A DNA stretch of 64,000 nucleotides from Paludibacter sp. Its GTDB lineage: Bacteria > Bacteroidota > Bacteroidia > Bacteroidales > Paludibacteraceae. Under the pieces are notes generated by a model. That model worked only from the letters and a program-made list of their open reading frames with translations. It had not been told where the DNA came from and searched no databases. Location: NCBI RefSeq assembly GCF_009712605.1, contig NZ_WASO01000003.1:114523-178522 (forward strand), in the 5' to 3' direction. Positions 16,963 through 33,562 of the stretch are shown piece by piece; the first letter of the stretch is position 1; each line of letters begins with the position of its first letter. The translations under genes and the position numbers were made by a program.

Positions 16963-19197
16963 ATGCAGCAGACCAACTATCAACTGTTCGATTTTCTTGA
17001 CTTCAGTACGACGCTCGACAACGGTGATCGCTTGTGGAGAGCGTGTACGCCCACGGAGATTGACGCGAAGAATGGCGACGTGTTTATCACGATCCCTTTT
17101 CAAAAGCAACAGAACTCCAACGAGATAAATCCCGATACCTCAGAGCCCCGCAAAAACTATGTGTTGCGCTTGCGGGCTTACGGCCGAAAAATCGTACGGG
17201 CAGCCATCGGTTTTGGTACCGAATGGATGGAAGACTCTCCGATGTTGGAACTCGATGCACGCCTTACTCCTAGTCCTTTGCATGTTGAAAAAACAGCATT
17301 GGAATGGATTGTAAAGGACTCCCATAACCAAACCAAAGCCATTGTCAGTTTCCGCCAGCCTGAAATAAGCTGGTGGAGCGATCTGGTTCCGGCACCGGCC
17401 GAAACCATCGACCTGACTCTTTTTCCCGATGGCGTGCATGAGGTAAAATTTTCCGCTTACGACATGTTTTCACCTGCCCGCCACGATGCTTTTGCGTTGG
17501 CATTGGTAGAACGAAATGATGTCCCGAATCGTGTGACCTGTTCGTTGAAAGCCAAAGCCGATGAGTGCTTTGTCGGCACCGGCGAACGTTTTGCCAAGAT
17601 GGATCTTTCGGGACGGACATTCCAACTGCGGAATCAGGACGGACAGGGTGTCAACAACCGTCGCGCTTACAAAAATATTCCGTTCTACCTTTCGAGCGAA
17701 CATTACGGACTGTTCCTGCATACCACCTCGTTTGCCAAATTCTCGCTGGCCGATCACTCTACTCGTTCTGCACAGGTGTTGGTGGAAGAGCCGATGCTGG
17801 ATTTGTTCTTTATTGGTGGCGACACCGCCGAGCAGATTTTGTTCGGCTATCGTCAACTGACCGGTTTCCCGACCATGCCTCCGCTCTGGAGCTTTGGAAC
17901 GTGGATGAGCCGCATGACCTATTTCTCTGCCGATGAGGTAAACGATATTTGTCGCCGGATGCGCACGGAGGGTTATCCCTGTGACGTGATTCACCTGGAT
18001 ACAGGTTGGTTTAAAACCGACTGGCTCTGCGAGTGGAAGTTCAACGACGAACGTTTTCCCGATCCGAAGAAATTTATCGCCGACCTGAAGAAGGACGGCT
18101 ACCGTGTGAGTTTGTGGCAATTGCCCTACATTTCATACAATGCCGAGCAATACGAAGAGGCCAACGCCAACGACTATATCAGCAAGAGCGAGCGGAAAAT
18201 TTCCGGCTCGTCCAACTTCAGCATGGAGGATTATGCCGGTACCATCGATTTCACCTACGACAAGGCAACCGAATGGTACAAAAGTTTGTTGAAAAAACTG
18301 CTCGATATGGGTGTCGTTTGCATCAAAACCGACTTTGGTGAAGATATTCACCTGGATGCTGAATACCATTCGATGACACCCGAAAAATTGCACAATCTCT
18401 ATCCGTTATTGTACCAAAAAGCAGCTTACGAAATCACCAAAGAGGTGGCCGGCGACGGCATCGTGTGGGCGCGTGCCGGATGGGCGGGTTGCCAGCGTTA
18501 TCCCCTGCACTGGGGTGGTGATTCGGCCTGTTCATGGGACGGACTGGCCGGTTCGTTGAAAGGTGGCTTGCATATTGGTCTGTCGGGTTTCGGTTTCTGG
18601 AGTCACGACGTACCGGGTTTTCATGGTGTGCCCAACTTTATGAACTCCGTTTTACCCGACGATATTTACGTGCGCTGGACACAGTTCGGGGTCTTTTCGT
18701 CGCACCTGCGCTATCACGGTTCGCACGAGCGCGAACCCTGGCACTATCCCGCCATTGCGCCAATCGTAAAAAAATGGTTGCAGCTGCGCTACCGTTTGAT
18801 TCCCTATATTTTGGAGCAGAGCGAAAAGGTAACCCATACCGGTTATCCGGTGTTGCGAGCATTGTTGTTCCACCATCCCGAAGATAAGACCTGCTGGCAT
18901 ATTGAAGATCAGTACTATTTTGGAGACAACATGCTGGTGGCTCCGGTGATGAATTCGCAGAACCGTCGGGATATTTATCTGCCCGAAGGCAAGTGGGTAA
19001 ACTTTTTTACCGGAGAAATACTGGAAGGGGAACGCTGGTTACGCAACGTGGAAGTTCCTCTGGAACAGATGCCAGTGTACGTGAAATACGGTGCCGAAAT
19101 TCCGGTTTATCCCGAGAATGTGAATTGCACCGACGAAATGGATATGACGAAAGTGGTGAAAATCCGCTTTGATGAAAAAACGGAACGTACGCTATGA
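16963..19197 (+). CDS. GH31 alpha-xylosidase, cytoplasmic
   Basis: This 744-residue GH31 enzyme shows no signal peptide (MQQTNYQLFDFLDFS...), unlike almost every other glycosidase in the window. The catalytic nucleophile is Asp457 in CIKTDFGED and the acid/base is Asp520 in LHWGGDS, and both neighbourhoods match YicI-type alpha-xylosidases (the KTDFGE signature). An N-terminal beta-sandwich (about 1-290) and the proximal and distal C-terminal beta domains are present. It should release alpha-D-xylose from short oligosaccharides inside the cell. In this locus, the alpha-xylosyl target could be the 2-O-methyl-xylosyl-fucose unit of RG-II chain A, since the genes directly downstream encode methyl-transfer proteins. 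Isoprimeverose from xyloglucan is the ordinary alternative. A UroD-family gene follows 59 nt later. Confidence 0.88.
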   Translation: MQQTNYQLFDFLDFSTTLDNGDRLWRACTPTEIDAKNGDVFITIPFQKQQNSNEINPDTSEPRKNYVLRLRAYGRKIVRAAIGFGTEWMEDSPMLELDARLTPSPLHVEKTALEWIVKDSHNQTKAIVSFRQPEISWWSDLVPAPAETIDLTLFPDGVHEVKFSAYDMFSPARHDAFALALVERNDVPNRVTCSLKAKADECFVGTGERFAKMDLSGRTFQLRNQDGQGVNNRRAYKNIPFYLSSEHYGLFLHTTSFAKFSLADHSTRSAQVLVEEPMLDLFFIGGDTAEQILFGYRQLTGFPTMPPLWSFGTWMSRMTYFSADEVNDICRRMRTEGYPCDVIHLDTGWFKTDWLCEWKFNDERFPDPKKFIADLKKDGYRVSLWQLPYISYNAEQYEEANANDYISKSERKISGSSNFSMEDYAGTIDFTYDKATEWYKSLLKKLLDMGVVCIKTDFGEDIHLDAEYHSMTPEKLHNLYPLLYQKAAYEITKEVAGDGIVWARAGWAGCQRYPLHWGGDSACSWDGLAGSLKGGLHIGLSGFGFWSHDVPGFHGVPNFMNSVLPDDIYVRWTQFGVFSSHLRYHGSHEREPWHYPAIAPIVKKWLQLRYRLIPYILEQSEKVTHTGYPVLRALLFHHPEDKTCWHIEDQYYFGDNMLVAPVMNSQNRRDIYLPEGKWVNFFTGEILEGERWLRNVEVPLEQMPVYVKYGAEIPVYPENVNCTDEMDMTKVVKIRFDEKTERTL

Positions 19198-19256
19198 CAC
19201 AAAGACGCAAAAGAATTATAGCGTCATAGCGTCTTTGCGTACAACATATTATATTT

Positions 19257-20321
19257 ATGCAAACCTGGAAAACTAACTTTGAAGAAACCAAACAGCACTA
19301 CCTCAACTGGTGGAACCATAAAGGCATTGTGCTGACCATGTGGGAACACCTGCAAAAAGATGGAGCACCGTATGCCGATGTGGCAGCGCCTGCTCCGCAT
19401 AAAGATATGAATCAGTTTTGGTTCGATCCGCAGTGGCGGGCCGATTACCTGCACTATACCATGTCGCGCAATTCGTACATGGCCGATATTCTCCCGGTTG
19501 CCAATACGCAACTGGGTCCCGGTTCGCTGGCGGCTACCATTGGTGCCGATCTTGAAGGGCGTGAAGACACTATCTGGATCAGAGAAAATGCAGGTTTTGA
19601 CGGTAATATCCGCTTTGACGAAAATAATAAATGGTACCAACTGCATCTCGATTTGCTGAAAGCTTGCAAGGCGAAAGCGCAGGGCAATTATCTGGTAGGC
19701 TGTCCCGATTTGGTGGAAGGCCTCGATACGTTAGCCAGTCTGAAAGGACCGGACAACGTACTGATGGACATGATTCTTGATCCCGACCGTACACTGGAGC
19801 AGTTGCAGGCCATCAACGATGTTTATTTCAAGGTATTCGACGACATTTACGATATAATCAACGTGGATGGTGAGATGGCATTTTGCTATTTTTCTATTTG
19901 GGGACCCGCCAAAACATCCAAGTTGCAGTGCGACATCTCCATTATGATTTCGCCGGAAGATTTCCGGATATTTGCCTTGCCCTTCCTGAAACAGCAATGC
20001 GACAAGATCGATTACACGCTCTATCACCTTGATGGGGTGGATGCTATTCGCCATTTGGATGCGCTGTTGGAGATTGAAAACCTGAGCGCCATTCAGTGGA
20101 CGCCGGGTTACGGTCAGCCGCAGGGAGGCAGTCCGCAATGGTACGACCTGTATAAGAAGATAATAGCCGGAGGAAAATCCATTATGGCCAATTGGGTGAC
20201 ATTGGACGAATTACAACCGTTACTCGATAATGTGGGTAATCAGGGATTGCACATCAACGTCGATTTCAAATCGGAAAAAGAGATTGAGCAGGCATTGAGA
20301 ATTGTAGAAAAATACAGATAA
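19257..20321 (+). CDS. UroD/MtaA-superfamily protein lacking the zinc Cys (UroD-A)
   Basis: This 354-residue cytoplasmic protein has the uroporphyrinogen-decarboxylase-like TIM-barrel layout found in corrinoid methyltransferases (the DLVEGLDTLASLKGPDNVLMD and SPEDFRIFALPFLKQQCDKID segments, then YHLDG). At the position where family methyltransferases have His-X-Cys, it has His257-Leu-Asp259, and the C-terminal zinc Cys is also missing (LHINVDF). The N-terminal motif of true heme-pathway UroD is absent, so heme synthesis is unlikely. It may bind a methylated substrate without zinc thiol chemistry, or be a non-methyltransferase relative. The gene follows the GH31 alpha-xylosidase by 59 nt and precedes a symporter, suggesting one transcription unit for uptake and processing of a small glycoside. 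Exact function is not recognised. Confidence 0.65.
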   Translation: MQTWKTNFEETKQHYLNWWNHKGIVLTMWEHLQKDGAPYADVAAPAPHKDMNQFWFDPQWRADYLHYTMSRNSYMADILPVANTQLGPGSLAATIGADLEGREDTIWIRENAGFDGNIRFDENNKWYQLHLDLLKACKAKAQGNYLVGCPDLVEGLDTLASLKGPDNVLMDMILDPDRTLEQLQAINDVYFKVFDDIYDIINVDGEMAFCYFSIWGPAKTSKLQCDISIMISPEDFRIFALPFLKQQCDKIDYTLYHLDGVDAIRHLDALLEIENLSAIQWTPGYGQPQGGSPQWYDLYKKIIAGGKSIMANWVTLDELQPLLDNVGNQGLHINVDFKSEKEIEQALRIVEKYR

Positions 20322-20605: not shown

Positions 20606-22171
20606 ATGAATAACATTTTAGGCACTCTCCAGAGCCTCGATTTTGTGATTATTGCCGTCTACATGGCGACTTTGATCTTTATCGGTTACTGGGTGAGTTT
20701 TGTAAAGAAGAAAAAAGAGAACGAGAATATGTTTCTCGCCGAACACTCGTTGACGTGGCCTTCCATCGGGCTCAATATGTGGGGAACTAACGTTGGACCC
20801 TCCATGTTGTTGGCTTCAGCAAGTGCCGGATACACCACGGGTATCGTGTCGGGAAATTTTGCGTGGTATGCGTTCATTTTCATATTGATGCTGGCGGTGG
20901 TTTTTGCACCGCGTTACATCGGGGCTAAGGTTTCGACTTTGCCCGAATACATGGGAAAACGGTTCGGACAATCGACCCGCCACCTGTTGGCCTGGTACAC
21001 GCTGATCACGATTCTGATTTCGTGGTTGTCGTTGGGATTGTTTGCCGGTGGCATCATGGTGAAACAGTTGCTGGGCATTCCGATGTGGTCGTCTATCATC
21101 ATCATGGTGGTTCTCGCAACGTTGCTGACGGCTGCCGGAGGTTTGAAAGCGATTGCATATACCAGTGTTTTTCAGATGATTTTGCTGATCATTGTCTCGC
21201 TAACGTTGACGCTGATCGGACTCGATAAAGTAGGCGGTCCTTCGGAATTGTTTCGTCAAACGCCGGGACACTACTGGCAGATGTTTTTGCCGAACTCGGA
21301 CAAAGACTTTCCGTGGTTGGCCATTATCCTGGGTTATCCCATTATGGGAGTCTGGTTCTGGTGTACCGAGCAGTCGATGGTGCAGTCGGTTCTTGGGGCT
21401 AAAAATCTGAAACAAGGACAATTGGGTGCCAGTTTTATCGGTTGGTTGAAGATTCTGGATGTACCTTTGTTTATTTTACCGGGGGTGATTTGCTTTGTGC
21501 TCTATCCGCATTTGGCAAATCCGGACGCAGCGTATCTCACACTGGTAACCAATATTTTCCCGATGGGGATGAAGGGGCTGATTATCGTAGTGCTGATGGC
21601 GGCGTTGATCGGCAATGTTGGTTCGTCGCTCAATTCGGTGAGTACGGTTTACACGATGGATATCTACCTGAAAAAGCATAAACCAAACGCGACCAATGCC
21701 GATATTATCCGAATCGGGCGTTGGGTGACGGTGGTAAGCGCCGTAGTCTCTGTGGTCATTGCACTGGCAATCGATGGCATCAAGGGATTGAATCTGTTCA
21801 ATGTTTTCCAGTCGGTACTGGGATTCCTGGCTCCGCCGATGTCGGTGGCATTTTTGTTTGCCGTGTTGTGGAAAAAAACATCGCGTCGTGCCATCAATTG
21901 GGTTCTGTCGGCCGGAACGCTGGTTTGCCTGACCATCGGGATATTGTTTTACCTGAAACTGATTTTCGCCGATTTGCATTTCCTCTACCTGTCGTTCTTT
22001 CTGTTTGTGGGACTGTCCCTTTTCACGGTCGTTTATTCACTGATGGACAAAAGAGCCGAGGATCACGAAAATACGCTGGACTACAAACCGATCAAAGTAT
22101 CGAATACGGTAAAAATTGCATGGGGATTGCTTATCGTGGTGATGGTTACATTGTACATCATATTCAATTGA
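20606..22171 (+). CDS. Sodium:solute symporter (SSS family)
   Basis: This 521-residue integral membrane protein has about 13-14 hydrophobic helices, with the SSS-family (PF00474) beginning at VIIAVYMATLIFIGYWVS and the conserved NMWGTNVGPSMLLASASAGYTTG, LPEYMGKRFG and LNSVSTVYTMDIY segments. SSS members couple sodium entry to import of sugars, sugar acids and similar solutes; the SGLT-like subgroup, common in Bacteroidota sugar loci, fits best here. It lies between UroD-A and the corrinoid protein gene, so its cargo is probably the substrate of the methyl-transfer module or the GH31 alpha-xylosidase, for example a methylated mono- or disaccharide. The specificity cannot be read from sequence. 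Confidence 0.9.
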   Translation: MNNILGTLQSLDFVIIAVYMATLIFIGYWVSFVKKKKENENMFLAEHSLTWPSIGLNMWGTNVGPSMLLASASAGYTTGIVSGNFAWYAFIFILMLAVVFAPRYIGAKVSTLPEYMGKRFGQSTRHLLAWYTLITILISWLSLGLFAGGIMVKQLLGIPMWSSIIIMVVLATLLTAAGGLKAIAYTSVFQMILLIIVSLTLTLIGLDKVGGPSELFRQTPGHYWQMFLPNSDKDFPWLAIILGYPIMGVWFWCTEQSMVQSVLGAKNLKQGQLGASFIGWLKILDVPLFILPGVICFVLYPHLANPDAAYLTLVTNIFPMGMKGLIIVVLMAALIGNVGSSLNSVSTVYTMDIYLKKHKPNATNADIIRIGRWVTVVSAVVSVVIALAIDGIKGLNLFNVFQSVLGFLAPPMSVAFLFAVLWKKTSRRAINWVLSAGTLVCLTIGILFYLKLIFADLHFLYLSFFLFVGLSLFTVVYSLMDKRAEDHENTLDYKPIKVSNTVKIAWGLLIVVMVTLYIIFN

Positions 22172-22236: not shown

Positions 22237-22905
22237 ATGAATCAGGAATTATTAATGAAACTTTCCGAATGTGTGGAATTCGGGAAAATTAATTTGGCAT
22301 CGCCTTATCCTCCCACTATGAAGGGGCAACCGGGAGCCGACGAATATACCAAAGAAGCGCTGGAAGCCGGTGCACAGCCATCTGAGATTTTGGACGAACT
22401 GGTTGCGGCTATGGGCAAAGTAGGCCAAAAGTTCACTGAAAATAAAATTTTTGTTCCACAAATGTTACTCTCGGCCAAGGCGATGAGCGCGGCAATGGCG
22501 CACCTGAAACCTTTCTTTGCAAGCGGCGCCGTACAGCGTAAAGGTACTTTCATTATCGGAACCGTATTCGGCGATTTGCACGATATCGGCAAAAACTTAG
22601 TTGCCATGATGGTGGAAGGTGCCGGTTGGGAAGTGATTGACCTGGGTATCGACGTGAAGGTCGAAAAATTTGTGGAAGCCGTACAGCAACATCCGGGTGC
22701 AGCACTGGGTATCTCGGCGTTGCTGACCACCACGATGGTGAACATCCAACCGGTGATCGAGGCGGTGAAAGCGGTATCTCCCGACACTAAAATTATTGTT
22801 GGAGGAGCACCTTTGTCAGCCGAGTTTGCTGCTTCCATCGGTGCCGATGCCTACGGCAAAACACCGCAGGACGACATCGTTTGGCTGGACACACTGATTG
22901 CATAA
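22237..22905 (+). CDS. Corrinoid (B12-binding) methyl-carrier protein
   Basis: This 222-residue protein has the two-domain form of MtaC/MtbC/MttC-type corrinoid proteins. Residues about 1-95 form the helical cap domain (ILDELVAAMGKVGQKFTENKIFVPQMLLSAKAM...), and about 103-222 the Rossmann-type cobalamin domain. The cobalamin motif is present as GDLHDIGKN (Asp113-X-His115-X-X-Gly118), with His115 the expected lower axial ligand, followed by SALLTTT (about 160-166) and VGGAPLS (about 188-194). Such proteins carry a methyl group on cobalt between a substrate-specific methyltransferase and a second methyltransferase. There is no fused MetH module, so it is a catabolic-type carrier. Its neighbours (UroD-family methyltransferase 113 nt downstream, then a MetH-activation-like protein) complete a methyl-transfer set. 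It is the only corrinoid protein in the window. Confidence 0.92.
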   Translation: MNQELLMKLSECVEFGKINLASPYPPTMKGQPGADEYTKEALEAGAQPSEILDELVAAMGKVGQKFTENKIFVPQMLLSAKAMSAAMAHLKPFFASGAVQRKGTFIIGTVFGDLHDIGKNLVAMMVEGAGWEVIDLGIDVKVEKFVEAVQQHPGAALGISALLTTTMVNIQPVIEAVKAVSPDTKIIVGGAPLSAEFAASIGADAYGKTPQDDIVWLDTLIA

Positions 22906-23017: not shown

Positions 23018-24016
23018 ATGAAATCCTGGATCGATTCCATTCTTACAAGTAAACAACGCATCGCACTGCCCATTATGACTCATCCGGGCATCGAAGCGAT
23101 CGGTAAAACAGTAAAAGAAGCCGTCAGCGACGGACAGGTACATTACGAGGCTATCAAATCGGTGGCAGAGCAGTTTGCCATGCCGGCCTGCACCTCCATT
23201 ATGGATTTGACGGTAGAGGCCGAAGCTTTCGGAGCAACCATCAATCTCCCGGACAATGAGGTGCCGACGGTAACCGGTCGTCTGGTATCGGATGCCGAAT
23301 CTATTGCCGCACTCGAAGTGCCATCGCTCGAAAAGGGGCGTGTGCCTGCTTACCTGTTGGCCAACAAACTGGCAGCCGAAAATATTACCGACAAACCGGT
23401 CTTTTCGGGGTGCATCGGACCGTTCTCGTTGGCAGGTCGTTTGTACGACATGTCGGAAATCATGGTAGGTATCTACATAGAACCCGATGCCATCAACGAA
23501 CTGTTATCGAAATGTACGCAGTTTCTGATTGACTATTGCAAGGCATTAAAAGCAAGTGGAACACAGGGTGTGGTGATGGCCGAACCTGCTGCCGGCTTAT
23601 TGTCGAATGAAGATTGTCAGATGTATTCCTCGGGATATGTGAAACAGATTGTTGAGGCTGTGCAGGACGATAATTTTACTGTAATTTTGCATAACTGCGG
23701 CAACACGGGTCATTGCACGGAAGCGATGTTGGCAACCGGTGCACGCGCACTCCATTTTGGTAATAAAATCGACATGGTGCAGGCCTTGAACGACTGCCCT
23801 GCCGATGTGATTGTTATGGGAAATCTCGATCCGGTCGGCGTATTCAAAATGGGGACTCCCGATGAGGTGTATGCCCAAACCAAGGAGTTGCTCGAAAAGA
23901 CGACCAGCTATGCCAATTTTGTTATTTCGTCGGGTTGTGATATTCCTCCGCACGCGTCCAATGCCAATATCGAAGCTTTTTTCAGGGCTGTGCAGGAATA
24001 CAATGAGACGATTTGA
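23018..24016 (+). CDS. MtaA/MtbA-like UroD-family corrinoid methyltransferase (UroD-B)
   Basis: This 332-residue protein is a UroD-superfamily TIM barrel with the zinc motif of methylcobamide methyltransferases: His225-X-Cys227 in VILHNCGN and Cys307 in SSGCDIPPH. The beginning (KQRIALPIMTHPGIEAIG), CTSIMDLTVEAEAFGA and GCIGPFSLAGRL are typical of MtaA/CmuA relatives. Family members bind a thiol or a methyl donor through zinc and exchange a methyl group with a corrinoid protein; in methanogens the acceptor is coenzyme M. Bacteroidota are not known to make coenzyme M, so homocysteine or another acceptor is likely, or the protein may be the substrate-side methyltransferase. Adjacent placement to the corrinoid protein makes it the best candidate direct partner. 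Confidence 0.85.
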   Translation: MKSWIDSILTSKQRIALPIMTHPGIEAIGKTVKEAVSDGQVHYEAIKSVAEQFAMPACTSIMDLTVEAEAFGATINLPDNEVPTVTGRLVSDAESIAALEVPSLEKGRVPAYLLANKLAAENITDKPVFSGCIGPFSLAGRLYDMSEIMVGIYIEPDAINELLSKCTQFLIDYCKALKASGTQGVVMAEPAAGLLSNEDCQMYSSGYVKQIVEAVQDDNFTVILHNCGNTGHCTEAMLATGARALHFGNKIDMVQALNDCPADVIVMGNLDPVGVFKMGTPDEVYAQTKELLEKTTSYANFVISSGCDIPPHASNANIEAFFRAVQEYNETI

Positions 24017-24156: not shown

Positions 24157-24159
24157 ATA

Positions 24160-25009: not shown

Positions 25010-26845
25010 ATGAAGTCCTTCTTTCTTGCCGGTTTTATGCTGGCATCGGTTTCGCTTTTTGCCACCGATATTTATGTTTCTCCTTCGGGGAACGATGCTG
25101 CCGATGGTTCTGCATCTGCACCCAAAGCCACGCTCTCTGCGGCTTTGCGCGATGCCCGCAACCTGCGTCGTTTGCAGAAAGTAGCCAAAGACGAAGCGAT
25201 TCATATTATTCTCAAAGGAGGAACTTATTTCCAGTACGAACCGGTTTTCGTTCGTCCCGAAGACAACGGAACGGAGAGCAGTCCTACCATCATTGAAGCC
25301 GCTGCGGGCGAACTGCCGGTGCTGAGCGGAGGGATGAAGGTGAGCGGCTGGAAAAAGCAAGGAAAATTCTGGGTAGCCGATGTGCCTGATTTCAACGGCT
25401 GTCGACTTAATTTTCGTCAGTTGTGGGTGAATGGCGCTAAAGCTGTTCGTGCCCGCGATGTGGCCGATTTTACCAAAATGAATACTATTTTGAAAAACGA
25501 CAAAAAGCACCAAACGCTATGGGTGCCGGCAAAGGCCGTCAGAAGTATTGCCAAAGCACCTCATGCCGAACTGGTCATCCATCAGATGTGGGGAGTGGCC
25601 AACCTGCGTATTAAATCGGTCGTTTTTCATGGAGATTCGGCCGGCATCAAATTCCACAATCCCGAATCGCGTATTCAGTTTGAACATCCCTGGCCGTCGC
25701 CGACTGTTGGCAAACCGTTCAACAATTCGGCTTTCTACCTCACCAATGCCCTGGAATTGCTCGATCAACCGGGTGAATGGTTTTACGATCAGGATAAAGC
25801 CAAACTGTATTACATTCCGCGAGCCGGTGAAGATATGAGCAAGTCCGAAGCGATTGTGCCGGCTATCGAAACGCTGGTTACGGTAGAGGGAACGCTTGAA
25901 AAACCGGTTCAATATGTTTATTTCAAAGGCATTGCATTTAACCACACTACCTGGACTCGCCCATCGGAAAAAGGACATGTGCCCCTGCAATCGGGCATGT
26001 TTTTCTACGATGCTTACAGGATAGATCCTCCGGGTGCCTTGGACAATGAAAACCGCGGCCTTGAAAATCAGGCCTGGTTGGGTCGCCAACCGGCTGCCGT
26101 GATGATGAACAATGTGCGTAATATTTCCGTGAGCGGGTGTCGTTTCGAACATCTTGGCGCTGCGGGTATCGATATGGTTACGGGTTGCCAGTACACCAAT
26201 CTGGAGGGGTGCCTCTTCCGCGACATTGCTGCAAATGGTATTGTTACCGGATTTATGGGCAGTAAAACACTGGAGGCACATCTTCCGTACGATCCGTTGG
26301 ATGAACGGGAACTTTGTACCGATCAGCGCATTGCCAATAATTATGTCACCGATGTGGCAAACGAAGACTGGTCGTGTGCAGGCATTGCAGCCGGATTTGT
26401 CCGCAACATTGCCATCGAACACAACGAATTGTACGATATTCCTTACATGGGCATCAGTCTTGGCTGGGCGTGGAGCAAGAGTGTGAACTGCATGCGTAAC
26501 AACCGTGTGTATGCCAACTATATCCACCATTTTGCGACGAAAGAATCAGATGTGGCGGCAATTTATATCTTGTCGGTGCAACCGAAAACAATGGTGACCG
26601 AAAACGTGGTGGACAGCTGTATGGTGCCTCCGTTTGTACACGATCCCGAACACTGGTTCTACCTCTACACCGACGAAGGATCGTCGTTCATCACCATGAA
26701 AGACAACTGGACACCTTCGGAAAAATACCTGAAGAATGCCAACGGTCCCGGCAATACCTGGGAAAACAACGGTCCCCAGGTTTCCGATTCGATCAAAAGC
26801 CGCGCGGGGTTGGAAGCAAAGTATTTGTATTTGAAGAAATTGTAA
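25010..26845 (+). CDS. GH141 family right-handed beta-helix glycosidase
   Basis: This 611-residue secreted protein has a signal peptide (MKSFFLAGFMLASVSLFA) and a parallel beta-helix with many NN-x-V-type turns. The beginning (DIYVSPSGNDAADGSASAPKATLSAALRDAR), the GGMKVSGWKKQGKFWVADVP segment, the LFYD-like QDKAKLYYIPRAGEDM region, and the C-terminal HFATKESDVAAIYILS region match the GH141 family. The best-known member, BT1002 of B. thetaiotaomicron, is an alpha-L-fucosidase that removes L-fucose of RG-II chain A; family members with xylanase activity also exist. The length (about 600) agrees. The gene is followed 15 nt later by a GH78 gene; in B. thetaiotaomicron a GH78 (BT1001) neighbours BT1002, as I recall. 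Catalytic residues are not assigned here. Confidence 0.8.
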   Translation: MKSFFLAGFMLASVSLFATDIYVSPSGNDAADGSASAPKATLSAALRDARNLRRLQKVAKDEAIHIILKGGTYFQYEPVFVRPEDNGTESSPTIIEAAAGELPVLSGGMKVSGWKKQGKFWVADVPDFNGCRLNFRQLWVNGAKAVRARDVADFTKMNTILKNDKKHQTLWVPAKAVRSIAKAPHAELVIHQMWGVANLRIKSVVFHGDSAGIKFHNPESRIQFEHPWPSPTVGKPFNNSAFYLTNALELLDQPGEWFYDQDKAKLYYIPRAGEDMSKSEAIVPAIETLVTVEGTLEKPVQYVYFKGIAFNHTTWTRPSEKGHVPLQSGMFFYDAYRIDPPGALDNENRGLENQAWLGRQPAAVMMNNVRNISVSGCRFEHLGAAGIDMVTGCQYTNLEGCLFRDIAANGIVTGFMGSKTLEAHLPYDPLDERELCTDQRIANNYVTDVANEDWSCAGIAAGFVRNIAIEHNELYDIPYMGISLGWAWSKSVNCMRNNRVYANYIHHFATKESDVAAIYILSVQPKTMVTENVVDSCMVPPFVHDPEHWFYLYTDEGSSFITMKDNWTPSEKYLKNANGPGNTWENNGPQVSDSIKSRAGLEAKYLYLKKL

Positions 26846-26860: not shown

Positions 26861-29017
26861 ATGAGAAAATTATTCTTACTCCTCTTTTTGGCAATTGCCT
26901 CACAAACCCTTTTTGCCGAAAAGGTAGCCACCTGGATCTACTATCCGGGCGATTTTGAGATCTGGCTGAGTAACAACGTGCAAAACCGTCGTACCGCCCG
27001 CGGCGCTTTCTTTCCTCCGTTTTGGAAGGTGGACAGTCACTATGTGCTGGTGGAGTTCTCCAAAAAGCTCGACCTGACGGCTCCCGAAACTGTATCGTTG
27101 AAGGTGGAAGGGCGTTACAACGTGAAGCTCGACGGCAATATGCTGTTCGGTTTTCCCGACAAAGTGACTATTCCGGCAGGCAAGCATTCGCTCAATATCA
27201 AGGTGTTCAATCAGGCCACCGTTCCTTCCATTTACGTCAATGGCCCGACCATCAAGTCGGACGGTTCGTGGAAGGTGACCTACGAGGATAAGGAGTGGAT
27301 CGACGAGTCGGGTAAGGCATCCGACACTTCGTCGGGCACGCTCTATCTGGATGCTGCTTCGTGGAATTTCAATTCGCCCGACGCGCCTCCATCGACTTAC
27401 AAACTTGCAACCAAACCCCAACCGGCCGTTTCGCACAAGCAGGTCGGCAAAGGAGTGTTGTACGATTTTGGTAAAGAGACTTTCGGTTATCCCAAATTTA
27501 ACGGACTGAAAGGTAAAGGAACGCTTAGCGTCTACTACGGCGAATCGCCCGAAGAGGCACTTTCGGTAGACAGTTGCGAAACGCTGGATCATCTCTCCAT
27601 CGATCAACCGGCGGCAAAAGATTACACGGTCGATCTCTCGAAGGCTTTCCGCTATGTTTACGTGGAAAAGGACAATGCACTTTCGTACGATTCGGTGTCG
27701 ATGATGTACGAATATTTGCCGTTGGAATACAAGGGTAATTTCCGTTGCAACGATGCTTTGGTGAATAAAATGTGGGATGTGGGTATTTACACGCTTCACC
27801 TCACTACCCGCGAGTTTTTCATTGACGGCATCAAACGCGACCGCTGGTTGTGGAGTGGCGACGCTTACCAGAGTTACCTGATGAACTACTACTCGTTCTT
27901 CGATCCCGATGCGGCGAGTCGTACCATCTTCGCCTTGCGTGGCAAAGATCCGGTGACCAGCCACGTCAACACCATCATGGATTACACTTTCTACTGGTTC
28001 ATGAGTATTTACGATTTTTATCAATACACCGGAAATAAAAAGATTATCGAACAGCTCTACCCGCGCATGAAGAGCCTGATGGATTTCTGCCTCTCGCGTC
28101 GCGATGCCGACGGAATGATGGAAGGGAAGGCTGGCGACTGGGTATTTATCGACTGGGCCGACTTCAAAATGAGCAAGGCAGGACAGGTGAGTTTCGAACA
28201 GTTGCTCTTCTGCCGTAGCCTCGAAACCATGGCGTTGTGTTCCAATTTATTGAATAACAAGCAGGATGCCGACAGTTATACCAAACTGGCAACTGACCTG
28301 AAGGCAAAACTCTTGCCGGCGTTTTGGTCGGACAAGGCCGGTGCTTTTGTGCATAACCGTGAAAATGGTCAGCAAAGCGCGCAGATAACTCCGTTTACCA
28401 ATATGTTTGCCGTGTTGTTCGGTTATCTCGACAAAACCAAGACCGAAGCGGTGAAGCAAAACGTGTTGCTCAATCCGCATGCACTGAAGATTACAACTCC
28501 GTATATGCGTTTCTACGAACTGGAAGCGTTGTGCGCTCTGGGCGAACAGAAGCATGTGTTGAAAGAGATGCGCGACTACTGGGGCGGCATGATTAAGCTC
28601 GGTGCTACCACCTTCTGGGAAAAATACAATCCTGAACGCACCAATCAGACCGCCATGTACGGACGCCCCTTCGGCAACAGTTTTTGTCATGCCTGGGGAG
28701 CCAGTCCCATCTACCTGTTGGGCAAATATTATCTGGGCGTGAAGCCGACATCGCCGGGTTACAAAACTTACGACATCGAACCGAACCTCGGTGACCTGCA
28801 ATGGATGGAAGGCGATGTGCCGACACCCAACGGTAAGGTGCATATCTATGCAAACACGAAGGAAATCAGGGTAAAAGCCGATGAAGGTACAGGAACGCTC
28901 CGTTTCTCCAGCAAATCGAAACCTTCGTGCAAAGAGGGATCGATCGTTGCCAAAGGCGACAATAAATACGAACTGGAGATTCAGGCCGGGAAAGAATATA
29001 GTGTGAAGTATAAATAA
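26861..29017 (+). CDS. GH78 alpha-L-rhamnosidase (second, single-domain)
   Basis: This 718-residue protein has a signal peptide ending at LFA (residue 19) and starts its mature part with a beta-sandwich (ATWIYYPGDFEIWLSN). The (alpha/alpha)6 core carries DGIKRDRWLWSGDAYQS, the conserved acidic segment of GH78, and a second typical motif GATTFWEKYNPE. It ends in a beta domain with DIEPNLGDLQWMEGDVPTPNG. It removes alpha-L-rhamnose. It differs from the 11435 protein by lacking the BNR and TIM-barrel additions, and is shorter than average, with fewer N-terminal domains. Position 15 nt after GH141 implies co-translation, and together they fit removal of RG-II chain sugars. Linkage specificity is unknown. 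Confidence 0.87.
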   Translation: MRKLFLLLFLAIASQTLFAEKVATWIYYPGDFEIWLSNNVQNRRTARGAFFPPFWKVDSHYVLVEFSKKLDLTAPETVSLKVEGRYNVKLDGNMLFGFPDKVTIPAGKHSLNIKVFNQATVPSIYVNGPTIKSDGSWKVTYEDKEWIDESGKASDTSSGTLYLDAASWNFNSPDAPPSTYKLATKPQPAVSHKQVGKGVLYDFGKETFGYPKFNGLKGKGTLSVYYGESPEEALSVDSCETLDHLSIDQPAAKDYTVDLSKAFRYVYVEKDNALSYDSVSMMYEYLPLEYKGNFRCNDALVNKMWDVGIYTLHLTTREFFIDGIKRDRWLWSGDAYQSYLMNYYSFFDPDAASRTIFALRGKDPVTSHVNTIMDYTFYWFMSIYDFYQYTGNKKIIEQLYPRMKSLMDFCLSRRDADGMMEGKAGDWVFIDWADFKMSKAGQVSFEQLLFCRSLETMALCSNLLNNKQDADSYTKLATDLKAKLLPAFWSDKAGAFVHNRENGQQSAQITPFTNMFAVLFGYLDKTKTEAVKQNVLLNPHALKITTPYMRFYELEALCALGEQKHVLKEMRDYWGGMIKLGATTFWEKYNPERTNQTAMYGRPFGNSFCHAWGASPIYLLGKYYLGVKPTSPGYKTYDIEPNLGDLQWMEGDVPTPNGKVHIYANTKEIRVKADEGTGTLRFSSKSKPSCKEGSIVAKGDNKYELEIQAGKEYSVKYK

Positions 29018-29145
29018 CTTAGTGCGCTTAGTGTGAGCTTTGTGTCCTTTGTGGTTGAATTCAGATTTTACCACAAAGAGCACAAAGAATTTAGCTTAGC
29101 TGACCGTTGGTTCACGAAGAACGCAAAGTTTAGGTAAAAAATTTT

Positions 29146-31179
29146 ATGAGCAAAAAAAGATTACAGATTGTAGTGTGGATGCTGATCGGAGCAGTAACTG
29201 TCTTGACGGCACAAAACAAGAGTTTGGTCAACACTTCGCAAAGTCCGTATGCGAAACTGACTGGGGTAAACATGGGCGATGTGCACTGGACGAAAGGTTT
29301 TTGGGCCGATCGTTTCGAGGTGTGCCGCAACTCCATGTCGCCTAAGTTGTTGAAAACCTACATGGACCCGAAACTGGGTCATGCCATTCAGAATTTTCAG
29401 ATCGCAGCCGGACAGGATACCGGGCGTTTTGTCGGTCCGTCGTTTCAGGACGGCGATTTTTACAAGGAGTTCGAGAGCTTGGTAAGCCTTTATGCCCAGA
29501 CCGGTGATAAAAAACTCGACCAGCTGATGGACGAGATTATTCCGGTGATCGTTAAGGCGCAGCGTGCGGACGGCTATCTTCATACTCCGACTATTATTGC
29601 ACAAAGAAATAATCCGAAAGAAGCCGGGGCTTTCGCCGATCGTCTCAATTTTGAGACCTACAACATGGGTCACCTGATGACAGCGGCTTGCCTGCACTAC
29701 CGGGTTACGGGTAAACGCACTTTGCTGGATGCCGCTATCAAGGCCGCCGATTTTCTCTACGACTTTTACAAAAAAGCTTCGCCCGAACTGGCACGCAATG
29801 CTATCTGCCCTTCGCATTACATGGGTGTGGTGGAGATGTATCGCACTACCCGCGATCCGAAATATCTGGAACTGTCGAAGAGTTTGATCGATATACGCGG
29901 TATGATGAAAGAGGGCACCGACGACAATCAGGATCGGGTGCCGTTCCGTCAGCAAACCAAGGCGATGGGACATGCCGTGCGTGCTAATTACCTCTATGCC
30001 GGTGTGGCCGATGTTTTTGCCGAAACGGGAGATACCTCACTGCTCCGTCCGTTGAACCTGATTTGGAACAATATGGTGGATACCAAAATGTACATCACAG
30101 GCGGCTGCGGAGCCCTGTATGACGGCGTTTCTCCTTACGGTACGTCTTACAATCCGGTTGAGATTCAGAAAACGCATCAGTCTTTTGGTCGTGACTATCA
30201 GTTGCCCAATATGACAGCCTACAACGAAACTTGTGCCAACATCGGAAACCTGTTGTTCAACTGGCGCATGTTGCAAATTACCGGCGACGCCAAATACGCC
30301 GATGTGGTGGAACTGGTTTTGTACAATAGCCTTTTGTCCGGCGTTAGCCTCGACGGAGTCGATTTTTGCTACACCAATCCGTTAAGTCAGTCCACCAATT
30401 TTCCGTATAAAATGCGCTGGATGGGAGGCCGTATTCCGTATATCGCCTTGTCCAACTGCTGTCCGCCGAATACCACCCGTACCGTTTCCGAGGTACAGGA
30501 TTATGCTTACAACCTTTCCAAAGAGGGTTTGTGGGTGAATCTTTACGGAGGTAACGAAATAAATACCACGCTCGAAAACGGCGAAAAAATTCAGGTTGTC
30601 CAGACCACCGATTATCCTTGGGAGGGTGCAGTTTCTCTCGAATTGAAGAAAGCCCCGAAAAAAGCATTTGCACTTTTTGTCCGCATTCCGGGCTGGTGCA
30701 AGGGTGCTTCATTGACGGTGAACGGAAAAGAAGAGCAAACGAATATGGCGTCTTCTTCGTATGTAAAACTGGAACGGAAATGGAAAGCCGGCGACAAGGT
30801 GGAACTCAATTTGCCGATGGAAGCCAAACTGATGGAGGCTAATCCGCTGGTAGAAGAGTCGCGCAACCAGGTAGCCGTAAAACGCGGTCCGGTGGTCTAT
30901 TGCATGGAAGGCGTCGATCTGCCGGGCAGCAACATCTTTGGTGTGACATTGCCTTCCGACATTAAGTTTGCGCCCAAACCAATTGAAATTGATGGTGCCA
31001 AACTGGCTGCTCTTGAAGGCAAAGCTTTTGTTGAAAATACGGGAGATTGGAGCAATACGCTTTACCGTGAAGTATCGCCATTGAAGAAAGAGGTTACAGT
31101 TCGCCTGATTCCTTACTTTGCATGGGGTAACCGCGGACAGGGTGACATGACCGTTTGGATGAATTTGCTGAGAAAATAA
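29146..31179 (+). CDS. GH127 (DUF1680) glycosidase
   Basis: This 677-residue protein has an N-terminal signal segment (RLQIVVWMLIGAVTVLTAQ) and an (alpha/alpha)6 barrel of the DUF1680 family. The zinc-cysteine catalytic set of GH127 is present: Glu361 and Cys363 in YNETCANIGN, and Cys438/Cys439 in LSNCCPPNTTRT. Family members are beta-L-arabinofuranosidases using a cysteine nucleophile; the B. thetaiotaomicron RG-II member (BT1003, as I recall) acts on the rare aceric acid of chain B. In this neighbourhood (after GH141 and GH78) the RG-II role is more probable than a plant glycoprotein arabinan role, but this is context-based. Its 128-nt upstream gap contains CACAAAG-type repeats. It precedes the paired UroD-C/UroD-D genes. 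Confidence 0.9.
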   Translation: MSKKRLQIVVWMLIGAVTVLTAQNKSLVNTSQSPYAKLTGVNMGDVHWTKGFWADRFEVCRNSMSPKLLKTYMDPKLGHAIQNFQIAAGQDTGRFVGPSFQDGDFYKEFESLVSLYAQTGDKKLDQLMDEIIPVIVKAQRADGYLHTPTIIAQRNNPKEAGAFADRLNFETYNMGHLMTAACLHYRVTGKRTLLDAAIKAADFLYDFYKKASPELARNAICPSHYMGVVEMYRTTRDPKYLELSKSLIDIRGMMKEGTDDNQDRVPFRQQTKAMGHAVRANYLYAGVADVFAETGDTSLLRPLNLIWNNMVDTKMYITGGCGALYDGVSPYGTSYNPVEIQKTHQSFGRDYQLPNMTAYNETCANIGNLLFNWRMLQITGDAKYADVVELVLYNSLLSGVSLDGVDFCYTNPLSQSTNFPYKMRWMGGRIPYIALSNCCPPNTTRTVSEVQDYAYNLSKEGLWVNLYGGNEINTTLENGEKIQVVQTTDYPWEGAVSLELKKAPKKAFALFVRIPGWCKGASLTVNGKEEQTNMASSSYVKLERKWKAGDKVELNLPMEAKLMEANPLVEESRNQVAVKRGPVVYCMEGVDLPGSNIFGVTLPSDIKFAPKPIEIDGAKLAALEGKAFVENTGDWSNTLYREVSPLKKEVTVRLIPYFAWGNRGQGDMTVWMNLLRK

Positions 31180-31350: not shown

Positions 31351-31357
31351 CAAAAAT

Positions 31358-32434
31358 ATGTCTTTTAAATCAAATTCCTTATTGGGGAACAATATACTTC
31401 CGGTCGATATTGTGCTGGCACCGGAGTGGTGGAATAAAAACGAAGGAATCACCTTCGATCGCGATTTCTTTTTCAATCCGTTGAAACGGGTGGAAGAGGA
31501 GCAACACATGGAAAAGGTGTTGTACGATCGTTGGGGGAAATACGGCTTGGGAGAATACCGCAACGAAGCACGTCCTGAGATCGGGGCGGTGCATTTGGCT
31601 TCAGGATTTTTGTTGTCGGAGATGCTCGGTTGCACGGTCAATTATACCGAATCGCATCCGCCACAGGTAGTTTGTGCCAATGCAGATGCTCTTGAAATTG
31701 AAGTTGAGAAAGCATTTGCTTCGGAACCGTTTCAGCGATTGGAGAAATTGGTTGCAGCTTTAAAAGAAAAATATGGCTACCTTACCGGCGATATCAACTG
31801 GGGTGGCATTCTCAACCTGGCGCTTGACGTGCGGGGCGAGAACATCTTTATCGATATGATGATGACGCCCGATGAGGTGAAGGAATACTTTGCCAAAATC
31901 GCACAGGTGATCGAACGCTTTACAGCCTATGTACAGAACCTGACCGGAACGTCATCGATCTCGGTAACGCGCAATGTCCGTTTGCTGAAAGAGCCGGTGT
32001 TGTTGCATTCCGAATGTTCGCATACCATGATTTCGGAGGACGACTATGAAGAGTTTTTGTTGCCTTTCGACGTGAAATGGAGTGCCCGTCGTCCGTACGG
32101 CATCCACTATTGCGGACCCGATCCGCACCGCATGGCAGCCAGTTTTGCCAAAATTCCGCATCTCGACTTTCTCGACCTGGGTTGGGGTGGCGATGTGAAG
32201 TTGCTGCGTGAACAACTGCCCGACACGATGTTCAGTATTCGTCTCAGTCCGGTGGAGTTGGCCAAGCAGTCGCACGACGAAATTCGCGGTCACATCACCC
32301 GTTTGGTGGGCGAGTCCGGCAATCCGTATCTGACAGCTGTTTGCTGCATCAATATGGACGACAGCGTAACCGACGATAAGATCAATGTCATTTTTGAAAC
32401 GGTGGAAGAACTCAGAAAAGAGTATTCAAAATAG
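31358..32434 (+). CDS. UroD-family methyltransferase-like protein (UroD-C)
   Basis: This 358-residue cytoplasmic protein is a UroD-superfamily TIM barrel. The zinc ligands expected for corrinoid methyltransferases are present as His250-X-Cys252 in GIHYCGPDPH and Cys329 or Cys330 in TAVCCINMDD. The N-terminal part (DIVLAPEWWNKNEGITFDRDFFFN, LGEYRNE) differs strongly from UroD-B, so its substrate pocket is probably different. It is followed 6 nt later by UroD-D, and the two probably form a complex or act on related substrates. Known relatives transfer methyl groups to or from corrinoid proteins. No corrinoid protein lies next to this pair; the one encoded at 22237 would have to serve. Role in demethylating sugars is inference. 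Confidence 0.75.
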   Translation: MSFKSNSLLGNNILPVDIVLAPEWWNKNEGITFDRDFFFNPLKRVEEEQHMEKVLYDRWGKYGLGEYRNEARPEIGAVHLASGFLLSEMLGCTVNYTESHPPQVVCANADALEIEVEKAFASEPFQRLEKLVAALKEKYGYLTGDINWGGILNLALDVRGENIFIDMMMTPDEVKEYFAKIAQVIERFTAYVQNLTGTSSISVTRNVRLLKEPVLLHSECSHTMISEDDYEEFLLPFDVKWSARRPYGIHYCGPDPHRMAASFAKIPHLDFLDLGWGGDVKLLREQLPDTMFSIRLSPVELAKQSHDEIRGHITRLVGESGNPYLTAVCCINMDDSVTDDKINVIFETVEELRKEYSK

Positions 32435-32440
32435 ATTGTT

Positions 32441-33562
32441 ATGAAATTTGATAATACTCTTGCCGATGCACAGGCGACAACAGTAGTTCCGGTGAAGCCT
32501 GCCGATTTTGATTTCGATCGTTACGAGGATTATTGCAACGGGTTGAATGCCGGTTGCGAAGCTTTCTGGAAAAGCAATTCAGGGGTGATGGTCTATCGAC
32601 GGATGCGGGTGGCGGAGTGCTTCTCGTACGGTTGCCGCGACAGGGAGCTTTCGTTGGCATTGCAACTGGGTGCACTTGAAAAGAGCATGCTGTTCAAAGC
32701 CGATGTGCCCAATTTTCTGGAACCTTGGTATGGTATCGGAACTATTGCGAGTGCTTTTGGCGGTGATTACCATTGGGTGGAAGGAAATGCCCCTGCCATG
32801 AAGCCTCGGTTTACGTCGATCGATGAAGTGTTGGCAAGCGATTACAAAGAAGTTGCAGAAACACCCATTGGGCGACATACGTTGGAGATGATCGAATATT
32901 TTATGGATCAAACCAAAGGGCGGGTGCCGGTGTCGTTTACCGATATGCAGTCGCCGCTCAATATTGTGGCGAGCCTGCTACCGTTGGACAGCTTTTTTAT
33001 GGATCTGATGATGGCTCCCGAAAAGGTACAGGCGTTGTTCGATTTGCTGTCCGACCTGACTATCCGTTTCGACGAAAAACAAAAGGCATTGATTGGAGAT
33101 GCATTGGTGTTGCCGGGACATGGTTTTGCTTCGTCAACAAAATGGAGTGGGCTGGGCATGAGCGACGACAATGCCATCATGATCGCACCCGAACAATATG
33201 CCGAAATGGCAGCGCCTTATGTGGAAAAGATTTGTGCTCCGCTGGGTGGCCCGGTGTTCCACTCGTGTGGCGACTGGTCGGGCTGGATTGATGCCGTGTT
33301 GGCAACCAAAGGTCTCAAGATGGCCGATGGTGCTTTCTCTCCGCAAACCGATCCGGGAGCGACCGACAATCTGGAGGCTTTTCACCGTTTTGCCAATACC
33401 GGTGTAGCACTCAATGCCCGTATTGTGGGCGATGTAGCAACTATTCGCGAACAACTCTCCCGTCTTTGGACGAAAGGGATGAAAATGGTCGTTGTAACTT
33501 ATTGTGCCACACCTGCCGAGCAGGAAGAAGCGTATAAGTTGGTGCATGAGATGTGTGAATAA
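32441..33562 (+). CDS. UroD-family methyltransferase-like protein (UroD-D)
   Basis: This 373-residue UroD-superfamily protein has the zinc motif His274-X-Cys276 in VFHSCGDWSGW and Cys355 in VTYCATPAE. The middle region (VPVSFTDMQSPLNIVASLLP, DLMMAPEKVQALFDLLSDL) is typical of the methyltransferase branch; the heme-pathway UroD active-site arginines near the N-terminus are not seen. The gene starts 6 nt after UroD-C, so translation is likely coupled. Both proteins are probably substrate-side or acceptor-side methyltransferases using the corrinoid carrier. Its position between GH127 and a SemiSWEET ties it to sugar import. Substrate cannot be read from sequence; 2-O-methyl sugars from RG-II are one hypothesis, methanol from methyl esters another. 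Confidence 0.78.
   Translation: MKFDNTLADAQATTVVPVKPADFDFDRYEDYCNGLNAGCEAFWKSNSGVMVYRRMRVAECFSYGCRDRELSLALQLGALEKSMLFKADVPNFLEPWYGIGTIASAFGGDYHWVEGNAPAMKPRFTSIDEVLASDYKEVAETPIGRHTLEMIEYFMDQTKGRVPVSFTDMQSPLNIVASLLPLDSFFMDLMMAPEKVQALFDLLSDLTIRFDEKQKALIGDALVLPGHGFASSTKWSGLGMSDDNAIMIAPEQYAEMAAPYVEKICAPLGGPVFHSCGDWSGWIDAVLATKGLKMADGAFSPQTDPGATDNLEAFHRFANTGVALNARIVGDVATIREQLSRLWTKGMKMVVVTYCATPAEQEEAYKLVHEMCE

Follow-up and report, generated by a model that had tools for sequence, protein, structure and literature searches.

RG-II carries methyl ethers on some of its sugars, among them 2-O-methyl-xylose and 2-O-methyl-fucose, and an explanation of the anaerobic fate of these methyl groups was not found in the open-licence literature. 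Sugar O-demethylases are not known to work without oxygen. In marine Bacteroidota, P450 enzymes demethylate 6-O-methyl-D-galactose in an oxidative, oxygen-dependent reaction, in which the methyl group is lost as formaldehyde. Can such groups also be removed, and kept, without oxygen? The question is raised by a locus in a 64,000-nucleotide stretch of a Paludibacter sp. genome (hereafter, the window), where genes for corrinoid-dependent methyl transfer lie among genes for RG-II degradation. We propose, with a probability of roughly 60%, that it encodes an anaerobic, corrinoid-dependent O-demethylation module that acts on methylated RG-II sugars and passes the methyl group to homocysteine.

The locus and its surroundings

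Eleven genes, all on the + strand, occupy positions 16963-33562. The first is a GH31 glycosidase (16963..19197; PF01055, E 3.1e-88), followed by UroA, a UroD-superfamily protein without His-X-Cys (19257..20321), an SSF sodium:solute symporter (20606..22171; PF00474, E 1.1e-51), a free-standing corrinoid protein, CP (22237..22905), the MtaA/CmuA-like zinc-motif protein UroB (23018..24016; PF01208, E 2.6e-56) and ACT, which resembles the activation domain of MetH (24136..24861). Next come a GH141 enzyme (25010..26845; PF21231, E 8.8e-71) and a GH78-like alpha-L-rhamnosidase (26861..29017; PF21209 and PF17389), both with a hydrophobic N-terminus and apparently secreted, and a GH127 aceric acid hydrolase that serves as RG-II marker (29146..31179; NF049879, 1160.1 bits against a cut-off of 950). 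The series ends with two UroD-superfamily proteins that carry His-X-Cys...Cys, UroC (31358..32434) and UroD (32441..33562; PF01208, E 9.2e-13). The original prediction had described corrinoid and UroD-type genes interleaved, in one orientation, with GH31, GH141, GH78 and GH127, and this arrangement is confirmed. It had also counted two transporters; the interval holds one, the SSF symporter.

The wider setting is an RG-II degradation locus. Besides the aceric acid hydrolase and GH141, it contains a GH140-type apiosidase (9914..11347, + strand; PF13204, E 5.5e-112) and a relative of the RG-II enzyme BPa0997 (34043..36727, + strand; PDB 6hzf/6hze, 1106 bits), which we take to be a GH138 protein. 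The latter (p894) had been considered as a GH139 2-O-methyl-fucosidase and a partner of UroC and UroD, an assignment set aside in view of its relationship to BPa0997. A RhaM-domain protein with a lipoprotein-like N-terminus lies immediately before the interval (16138..16854, + strand; PF05336, E 1.9e-10). The RG-II loci of B. thetaiotaomicron encode GH141, GH127 aceric acid hydrolase, GH138, GH140, GH78, GH106, GH95 and GH2 enzymes; compared with descriptions of those loci, the Paludibacter locus differs in having corrinoid methyltransferase genes interleaved.

Four other genomes of the genus keep the order from GH31 to GH127, although genes are inserted, and Dysgonomonas sp. 511, which belongs to another family, keeps most of it. 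Because this order recurs in other genomes, and is conserved across families, the cluster is not a product of chance.

The methyltransferase-like and corrinoid proteins

Four UroD-superfamily proteins had been predicted and all four stand, UroB and UroD by their PF01208 scores (191.6 and 48.3 bits against a cut-off of 23.9) and UroA and UroC by fold alone. The His-X-Cys motif is present in UroB, UroC and UroD and absent from UroA, again as foreseen. UroA has no Pfam match at E 0.1. Its AlphaFold (AF2) model (pLDDT 94.3) matches MtaA (4ay8) with a Foldseek E of 1.5e-9, and aligns with HemE at Z 20.5 (rmsd 3.7) and with MtaA at Z 19.9 (rmsd 3.8), over 295 residues in each case. The predicted structure is a TIM barrel of the UroD/MtaA type, and on this model UroA is a member of the superfamily. 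UroC scores 19.8 bits with PF01208, below the cut-off, and its model was built from four sequences (pLDDT 70.6); Foldseek relates it to UROD (E 7.1e-8) and MtaA (E 3.3e-7), so that by its modelled fold it too is a superfamily member.

The single corrinoid protein combines cap and B12 domains (PF02607 and PF02310) with a DxHxxG motif which begins at residue 113, exactly where it had been placed. Its best PDB match is 1y80, and it falls below the cut-offs of the named NCBIfam subfamilies. Every one of the 52 CP copies in the named loci described below has the longer form DxHDIGKN. ACT matches the MetH activation domain over 69 residues (PF02965, E 3.1e-8), in agreement with the earlier assignment, and carries RxxPGY and CxxCx4C. 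RxxPGY is found in 38/39 relatives, the remaining one being cut short. We propose that ACT is a SAM-dependent reactivator of the corrinoid.

Distribution and association with RG-II degradation

Of 80 named loci, 78 have a readable UroA ORF (L092 and L111 do not), and these 78 are the base for the locus counts that follow. The gene set is widespread among bacteria of gut and sediment that live on plant fibre, and its range extends to one genome each of Planctomycetota and Verrucomicrobiota. CP is encoded locally, in fused form or elsewhere in 75/78 UroA genomes; a search for a free-standing CP found none in the other three. Within the genus, CP is absent from two of eight genomes (G003 and G004). 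GH141 is present in 28/78 loci, and the RhaM-domain gene, often found upstream of GH31-UroA, in 19/78. A broader 'RGII' flag was raised by 50/78 loci; as it takes in broad GH families at low identity, it was set aside as evidence.

Association with RG-II degradation was instead assessed over 295 genomes of the order, using aceric acid hydrolase over its cut-off as the marker in place of GH137/GH139/GH140. The marker is present in 7/8 genomes with a strong UroA match but in only 4/287 of the others (p 7e-11), in 5/8 UroC genomes and in 5/6 UroD genomes. For each of these three proteins there is thus an association with the marker, and the predicted co-occurrence with RG-II genes is borne out. 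The association is not absolute. UroA is absent from four of the 11 genomes with aceric acid hydrolase, three of which also have neither UroC nor UroD, and in G042 UroA is present and the hydrolase is not over the cut-off. Some named loci come from genomes of this set (L049=G002, L050=G006, L060=G055, L076=G143 and L084=G099), and the two data sets are therefore not independent. In gut Bacteroides, Phocaeicola and Prevotella the core set is also found, in small loci that are without most RG-II genes, and the donor in these could therefore be a different xyloside.

The methyl donor

UroA is proposed to be a methyl-sugar:corrinoid methyltransferase (MT I), its donor being one that we infer from gene neighbours only. 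GH31 is the immediate upstream neighbour of UroA in 51/78 loci and is present somewhere in the locus in 60/78. The substrates of GH31 enzymes are alpha-D-glucosides and xylosides. The closest solved chain to the window enzyme is 5f7c (1178 bits), and a comparison of its active site with that of YicI gave nothing decisive. All other glycosidases of the window begin with a hydrophobic N-terminus and this one does not, by a crude check that takes a 12-residue hydropathy maximum and is not a signal-peptide predictor; the enzyme is thus apparently cytoplasmic. By the same check, the GH141 ORF of P. vulgatus has no hydrophobic start and the GH31 ORFs of Prevotella loci L113 and L124 have one; these exceptions are probably due to wrong start codons. 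An SSF symporter gene lies within two ORFs after UroA in 49/78 loci. We propose that GH31 is the alpha-xylosidase partner of UroA, and that the symporter imports the methylated (oligo)saccharide.

UroA might also take its methyl group from a different O-methyl sugar, for example 2-O-methyl-fucose or a uronic acid that is methylated, GH31 then being no more than an adjacent gene. Of these, 2-O-methyl-fucose is an RG-II constituent (PMC12282258), and Paludibacter-like loci add the genes of a deoxysugar set, UroE, RhaM and RhaT. UroE is nevertheless found in 12/78 loci and RhaT in 10/78, far fewer than have GH31 beside UroA, and the known substrates of GH31 enzymes also speak against this donor, which we regard as unlikely though worth keeping in view.

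Pectin degradation releases methanol. It could therefore be supposed that the corrinoid system uses methanol from pectin esters, or phenolic methoxyl groups, and rides along in a pectin locus. The characterised UroD-type O-demethylases MtvB, OdmB, VdmB and MtoB do act on methoxyaromatics, according to PMC13222342. Against this, no methanol-methyltransferase family was detected among the scanned window genes, and GH31 and the SSF symporter, the usual partners of UroA, would serve no purpose with methanol or with phenolics. Next to a UroA relative with 28% identity there are, moreover, again a GH31-like gene and a gene for a RhaT permease. A methanol or phenolic donor thus appears improbable.

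More improbable still is a methyl-sulfur or methionine-salvage cluster, resembling the type 1 mlp clusters, for which the RG-II setting would be incidental. Such clusters combine several Mlps with CP and a Ram/RACE activase; the locus has CP and one Mlp-like protein, UroB, and a scan of the interval showed no RACE gene. For MtaA-like proteins, of which UroB is one, roles in methyl-sulfur/selenium metabolism have been proposed by Kountz and Balskus (PMC10418091). The activase described in that article is of the Ram/RACE type, however, in contrast to the MetH-type activator found here, and its text contains no words beginning 'Bacteroid' or 'sugar'. UroA, a conserved and often fused partner that Pfam does not recognise, tracks both GH31 and the RG-II marker, which also tells against a sulfur role.

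Other methylated RG-II sugars are probably served by UroC and UroD as additional donor modules. UroC lies near relatives of GH138, GH95, GH2 and GH106 in 5/7 other genomes examined and is without RG-II neighbours in L165 and L168. UroD is beside, or one gene from, an MFS transporter in 3/5 other genomes examined; no such gene accompanies it in L160, L162 or the window. The idea that either is the strict partner of one glycosidase was rejected, as their neighbourhoods vary.

The methyl acceptor

Natural gene fusions point to homocysteine as the likely acceptor. UroA is fused in 31/78 loci: to CP in seven, and to a homocysteine-methyltransferase domain in 24, where CP then follows in 23 and one is cut at a contig end. 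Two further fusions, with domains confirmed by Pfam, occur in G146 and G245; both have the build UroA-Hcy-B12, with no pterin-binding domain at E 0.01. In the phylogeny, the fused group makes up one side of one branch (100/99).

The window genome encodes a stand-alone homocysteine methyltransferase (HcyMT) outside the locus. In a set of 61 relatives, such an enzyme is found in 7/13 that bear CP compared with 0/48 others (p 4e-6). Among 74 tested UroA genomes (the 78 minus L051, L055, L075 and L102), HcyMT is present in 51, locally in 27 and elsewhere in 24, and absent from 23, ten of which also have no UroB in the locus. Stand-alone HcyMT and CP occur without UroA in G043 and G058, and G042 has UroA and CP without HcyMT; therefore, HcyMT pairs with CP and not with UroA.

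UroB is possibly a second thiol (homocysteine) methyltransferase, judging from its sequence, and is probably not sugar-specific. MtaA (4ay7) is its best PDB match, and like MtaA, MtbA and the Mlps it belongs to the UroD family and has HxC...C, here H225-x-C227 and C307, a putative zinc site. It differs in falling below the NCBIfam cut-offs for MtaA (121.8 vs 400), MtbA (126.3 vs 600) and mtaA_cmuA (144.9 vs 235.4). In UroB ORFs of the named loci HNCG is found in 40/42 and SSGC in 38/42, two ORFs being cut at contig ends. Bacteroidota, to our knowledge, are not expected to have CoM. In 17 loci a UroB that retains both parts of the motif adjoins a fused HcyMT; UroB is therefore not a simple substitute for HcyMT. 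That UroB is the sole acceptor enzyme, with HcyMT replacing it elsewhere, was considered and dropped, since these 17 loci and the window genome have both.

Could the sugars be demethylated with another thiol (via UroB) or folate as acceptor, HcyMT serving some other role? UroB, with its intact motif, does lie between CP and ACT, and HcyMT is missing from 13 UroA genomes whose locus encodes UroB. The fusions of the homocysteine domain to UroA and the confinement of stand-alone HcyMT to CP-bearing relatives argue against this, as does the fact that MtaA-type enzymes methylate thiols. In the window genome, PF00809 is found in a full-length MetH frame (1234 aa) and one 336-aa frame outside the locus and nowhere else, leaving a folate acceptor via a PF00809 MT II unsupported; methyl-pterin transferases of the MtrH family (PF02007) may offer another route to folate. 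Overall, a different acceptor is rather unlikely, and transfer to homocysteine is the reading retained.

Comparison with known systems

The O-demethylase and Cdm systems of acetogens and archaea (OdmB, VdmB, MtvB, MtoB, CdmB) comprise a corrinoid protein, an MT II and an activating enzyme. The Paludibacter locus would share with them a UroD-superfamily MT I that acts on a separate cognate corrinoid protein, fused to it in relatives, and dedicated reactivation. CdmB (9rui) resembles UroB weakly in sequence (E 8.6e-4) and does not appear in the matches listed for the UroA fold. Unlike the acetogen enzymes, those described here have sugar-locus partners and a fused or linked homocysteine methyltransferase, and, as far as PF00809 covers such enzymes, no methyl-folate transferase besides MetH and the 336-aa frame. 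In the acetogen type, MT II delivers the methyl to tetrahydrofolate and an ATP-dependent RACE enzyme does the activating, whereas the putative activator of this locus resembles that of MetH.

MetH itself combines homocysteine, pterin-binding, B12 and activation modules in one protein. The two fused relatives that were scanned do not have this full complement, although their modular build mirrors it in the homocysteine domain, cap/B12 and activation function; the methyl-folate domain is missing, with UroA in its position, and the activation protein is separate. The P450 system is similar in that an O-methyl group is taken off a polysaccharide-derived sugar beside glycosidases, but the Paludibacter route is proposed to be anaerobic and to retain the methyl.

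A proposed pathway

The predicted O-demethylation of RG-II sugars gains support from the marker co-occurrence, the conserved gene order and the fusions. In the proposed pathway, secreted RG-II enzymes would free a methylated saccharide, which the SSF symporter would bring into the cell. UroA would then act in the cytoplasm, methylating Co(I) of CP with the sugar O-methyl group in the direction that we infer, before or after cleavage of the xyloside by GH31. The likely donor would be 2-O-methyl-alpha-D-xylose of side chain A, free or as a disaccharide with fucose. From CP the methyl group may pass to homocysteine, giving methionine, by stand-alone HcyMT and/or the MtaA-like UroB, a putative zinc enzyme, and oxidised corrinoid would be rescued by ACT as by the activation domain of MetH. 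The net result would be a methionine synthase in which the folate module is swapped for a sugar-ether module.

A search of the open-licence literature, which takes in few subscription papers, yielded no account of sugars being demethylated by corrinoid chemistry. Whether plant cell-wall sugar methyl ethers serve as methyl donors for methionine by a widespread anaerobic route in Bacteroidota is, in our estimate, evenly balanced. If so, gut bacteria would obtain from dietary pectin not only carbon but also methyl groups, as methionine and hence SAM, use of its methylated sugars would depend on B12, and methionine synthase could change its methyl donor by domain swap. Gut genera that would have the route include Phocaeicola, Bacteroides and Prevotella. 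A UroA-CP fusion is found in Phocaeicola vulgatus ATCC 8482 (L121), and the proposal is therefore directly testable.

Gene content and setting

A gene and Pfam scan places eleven co-directional genes at positions 16963-33562 (+ strand), encoding GH31, UroA, a sodium symporter (SSF), a corrinoid protein (CP), UroB, a MetH-activation-like protein (ACT), GH141, a GH78-like protein, GH127, UroC and UroD, where UroA to UroD are the UroD-superfamily proteins of the interval. The original prediction counted two transporters here; SSF is the only one within the interval. GH127 scores 1160 bits against a curated aceric acid hydrolase cut-off of 950, and the product of the gene after UroD is closely related to BPa0997, an enzyme of solved structure that we take to act on RG-II and to belong to GH138. 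Since these two are surrounded in the window by GH140, GH106, GH95, GH28, another GH78 and several GH2 genes, the setting of the corrinoid genes is, as judged from gene content, an RG-II degradation locus.

Two further frames lie nearby. A single 1536-aa frame (11435-16045) combines GH78, BNR_2 and xylose-isomerase-like (AP_endonuc_2) domains and has long matches in genomes G005, G006 and G055. The other (2160-3551) encodes an esterase-like protein, whose roughly 90 N-terminal residues appear STN-like by eye and have no Pfam match.

Co-occurrence and conservation

Co-occurrence was assessed in 295 genomes of the order, counting aceric acid hydrolase above its cut-off and UroA where the match was strong; the weak UroA matches of G119 and G203, neither of which has the hydrolase above cut-off, were scored as negative. 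UroA is found in eight genomes and the hydrolase in 11, with seven common to both (p = 7e-11), or six when the window genome is left out (p = 2e-9). The hydrolase also accompanies UroC in 5/8 genomes (p = 1e-6) and UroD in 5/6 (p = 2e-7). Counting against the association, four of the 11 hydrolase genomes (G168, G199, G242 and G315) have no UroA, and three of these also lack UroC and UroD.

The gene cluster originally observed is real and recurs far beyond the window. Four of the seven other genomes examined from the genus (G002, G005, G006 and G007) show the order GH31-UroA-SSF-CP-UroB-ACT-GH141-GH78-GH127 with insertions; in G001 a contig end interrupts the locus, and G003 and G004 have no CP. 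It is mostly retained in Dysgonomonas sp. 511, a member of another family, with GH127 on a different contig. In G005, whose locus is otherwise similar, two ORFs separate GH141 from GH78 (L014:15038-16675): a small one that resembles a transposase by eye, and an unknown one.

A scan for UroA relatives gave 277 stretches, of which the best 80 were retained as loci, 78 with a readable UroA gene. These 80 come from Paludibacter, Dysgonomonas, Proteiniphilum, Draconibacterium, Bacteroides, Phocaeicola, Prevotella and others, including one Sedimentisphaerales and one Opitutales record; UroA is present in 9/15 genomes of the family of G146. Among the 78, GH31 lies immediately upstream of UroA in 51 and anywhere in the locus in 60, SSF follows UroA in 49, and CP is present in 52, as a local gene or in a fusion; UroB, ACT and GH141 occur in 42, 39 and 28, respectively. 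A local CP is missing from 26 genomes; 23 of these have a free-standing one elsewhere (at least 46% identity), none being found at that level for L075, L077 and L102. In G203 (L044:72-6486), a remote UroA (28% identity) adjoins a GH31-like gene, alongside a RhaT permease and a GntR plus solute-binding-domain gene, so UroA may have been paired with GH31 before the RG-II module arose.

Fold, fusions and likely methyl acceptor

The window genome (3.7 Mb, 97.8% complete) has three PF01208 matches: UroB, UroD and a protein encoded elsewhere (350 bits) that is probably HemE. UroA and UroC are not picked up by this model, and UroA has no Pfam match. Nevertheless, the predicted structure of UroA (pLDDT 94.3) resembles the corrinoid:CoM methyltransferase MtaA and uroporphyrinogen decarboxylase, and UroC, which falls under the Pfam cut-off, gives a weaker model with the same fold match. 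His-X-Cys and a later Cys are present in UroB, UroC and UroD and absent from UroA. Across the named loci, YHLDGV is kept in 78/78 UroA copies, DxHDIGKN in 52/52 CP copies, RxxPGY in 38/39 ACT copies and both zinc motifs in 26/27 copies of a homocysteine methyltransferase (HcyMT), the exception, L098, being cut at a contig end.

UroA lies within a longer protein in 31/78 loci. Seven of these are UroA-CP fusions of about 600 residues from Bacteroides and Phocaeicola, including P. vulgatus ATCC 8482 (L121:10001-11803). The other 24 contain an HcyMT match, after which comes CP in 23 proteins, with Prevotella among the sources, and a contig end in one. In G146 and G245, Pfam confirms S-methyl_trans, B12-binding_2 and B12-binding after UroA. 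The fused UroA proteins form one side of a single tree branch (support 100/99). The UroA-HcyMT-CP fusion is like methionine synthase, but UroA stands where the pterin domain would be. The fusions point to CP as the partner of UroA and to homocysteine as the likely acceptor.

The window genome has a stand-alone HcyMT of 293 residues, located away from the locus and 59-65% identical to those inside UroA loci L040, L056 and L061. Among 61 relatives, such an HcyMT (at least 58% identity) occurs in 7/13 with a free-standing CP (at least 47%) and in 0/48 others. Because two of the seven (G043 and G058) have both proteins without UroA, CP and HcyMT look like a common core that donor modules join; in G042, UroA and CP are present without HcyMT. 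Related free-standing CPs also lie in settings without RG-II genes (L021-L025, in G042, G043, G050, G058 and G049), accompanied at L021 and L023 by ACT and another UroD-family protein.

Of the 74 UroA genomes tested, 27 have HcyMT in the locus and 24 have it at another site, two of these with no more than 40-42% identity. No HcyMT was found in the remaining 23; 13 of them carry UroB in the locus and 10 do not. UroB, which is MtaA-like, may be a second homocysteine methyltransferase, although in 17 loci it stands beside a fused HcyMT and so would not be just a stand-in for that enzyme. PF00809 matches only MetH and one 336-residue frame in the window genome. Frames of 778-823 aa in G018, G039 and G054, with HcyMT and B12 matches at 36-41% identity, are short MetH-like proteins.

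Likely substrate and cell compartment

In a crude hydropathy check, GH31 is the only window glycosidase without a hydrophobic N-terminus, and so GH31, UroA and CP would share the cytoplasm, supplied by the SSF symporter. To our knowledge, 2-O-methyl-D-xylose, in side chain A, is the only RG-II sugar that is alpha-linked, O-methylated and xylo-configured. Given this and the apparently cytoplasmic GH31 partner, the most likely substrate for demethylation by UroA is 2-O-methyl-xylose or the disaccharide that it forms with fucose; GH141 may be the enzyme that releases it.

Corrinoid demethylation of RG-II sugars, as originally suggested, is supported and sharpened by this genomic evidence, with the chemistry itself as a proposal. 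In the open-licence literature, a search for a corrinoid or methyltransferase link to RG-II, methylated sugars, homocysteine or polysaccharide utilization turned up no relevant report, an absence that is no proof. According to PMC13222342, O-demethylases and CdmB belong to the UroD superfamily and the Cdm methyl acceptor is folate. MtaA-like gene clusters are described in PMC10418091, the text of which has no words starting with 'Bacteroid' or 'sugar'.

Possible further donor modules

UroC lies near GH138, GH2, GH95 or GH106 relatives in 5/7 other genomes examined. In 3/5 others (L159:8249-10724, L161 and L163), an MFS transporter lies next to UroD or one gene away; by eye, one is also near UroD in L057, L080 and L086. 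The window, L160 and L162 have no such neighbour. UroD and the transporter are possibly a methylated uronic acid module. By eye, the transporter is of hexuronate type, and GH88 is also there once.

A fifth UroD-family protein, UroE, occurs in 12/78 loci, often with RhaM and RhaT, and this set probably serves as a second donor module that handles a methylated deoxysugar. We hypothesize that each methylated sugar has a donor module of its own and that all of these share a single CP. At L017:7072-9643, the module contains UroE and, after it, genes for an L-rhamnose-mutarotase-like protein and a RhaT-type permease; parts of the same set are seen in L052-L055, L057-L059, L061, L062 and L070.
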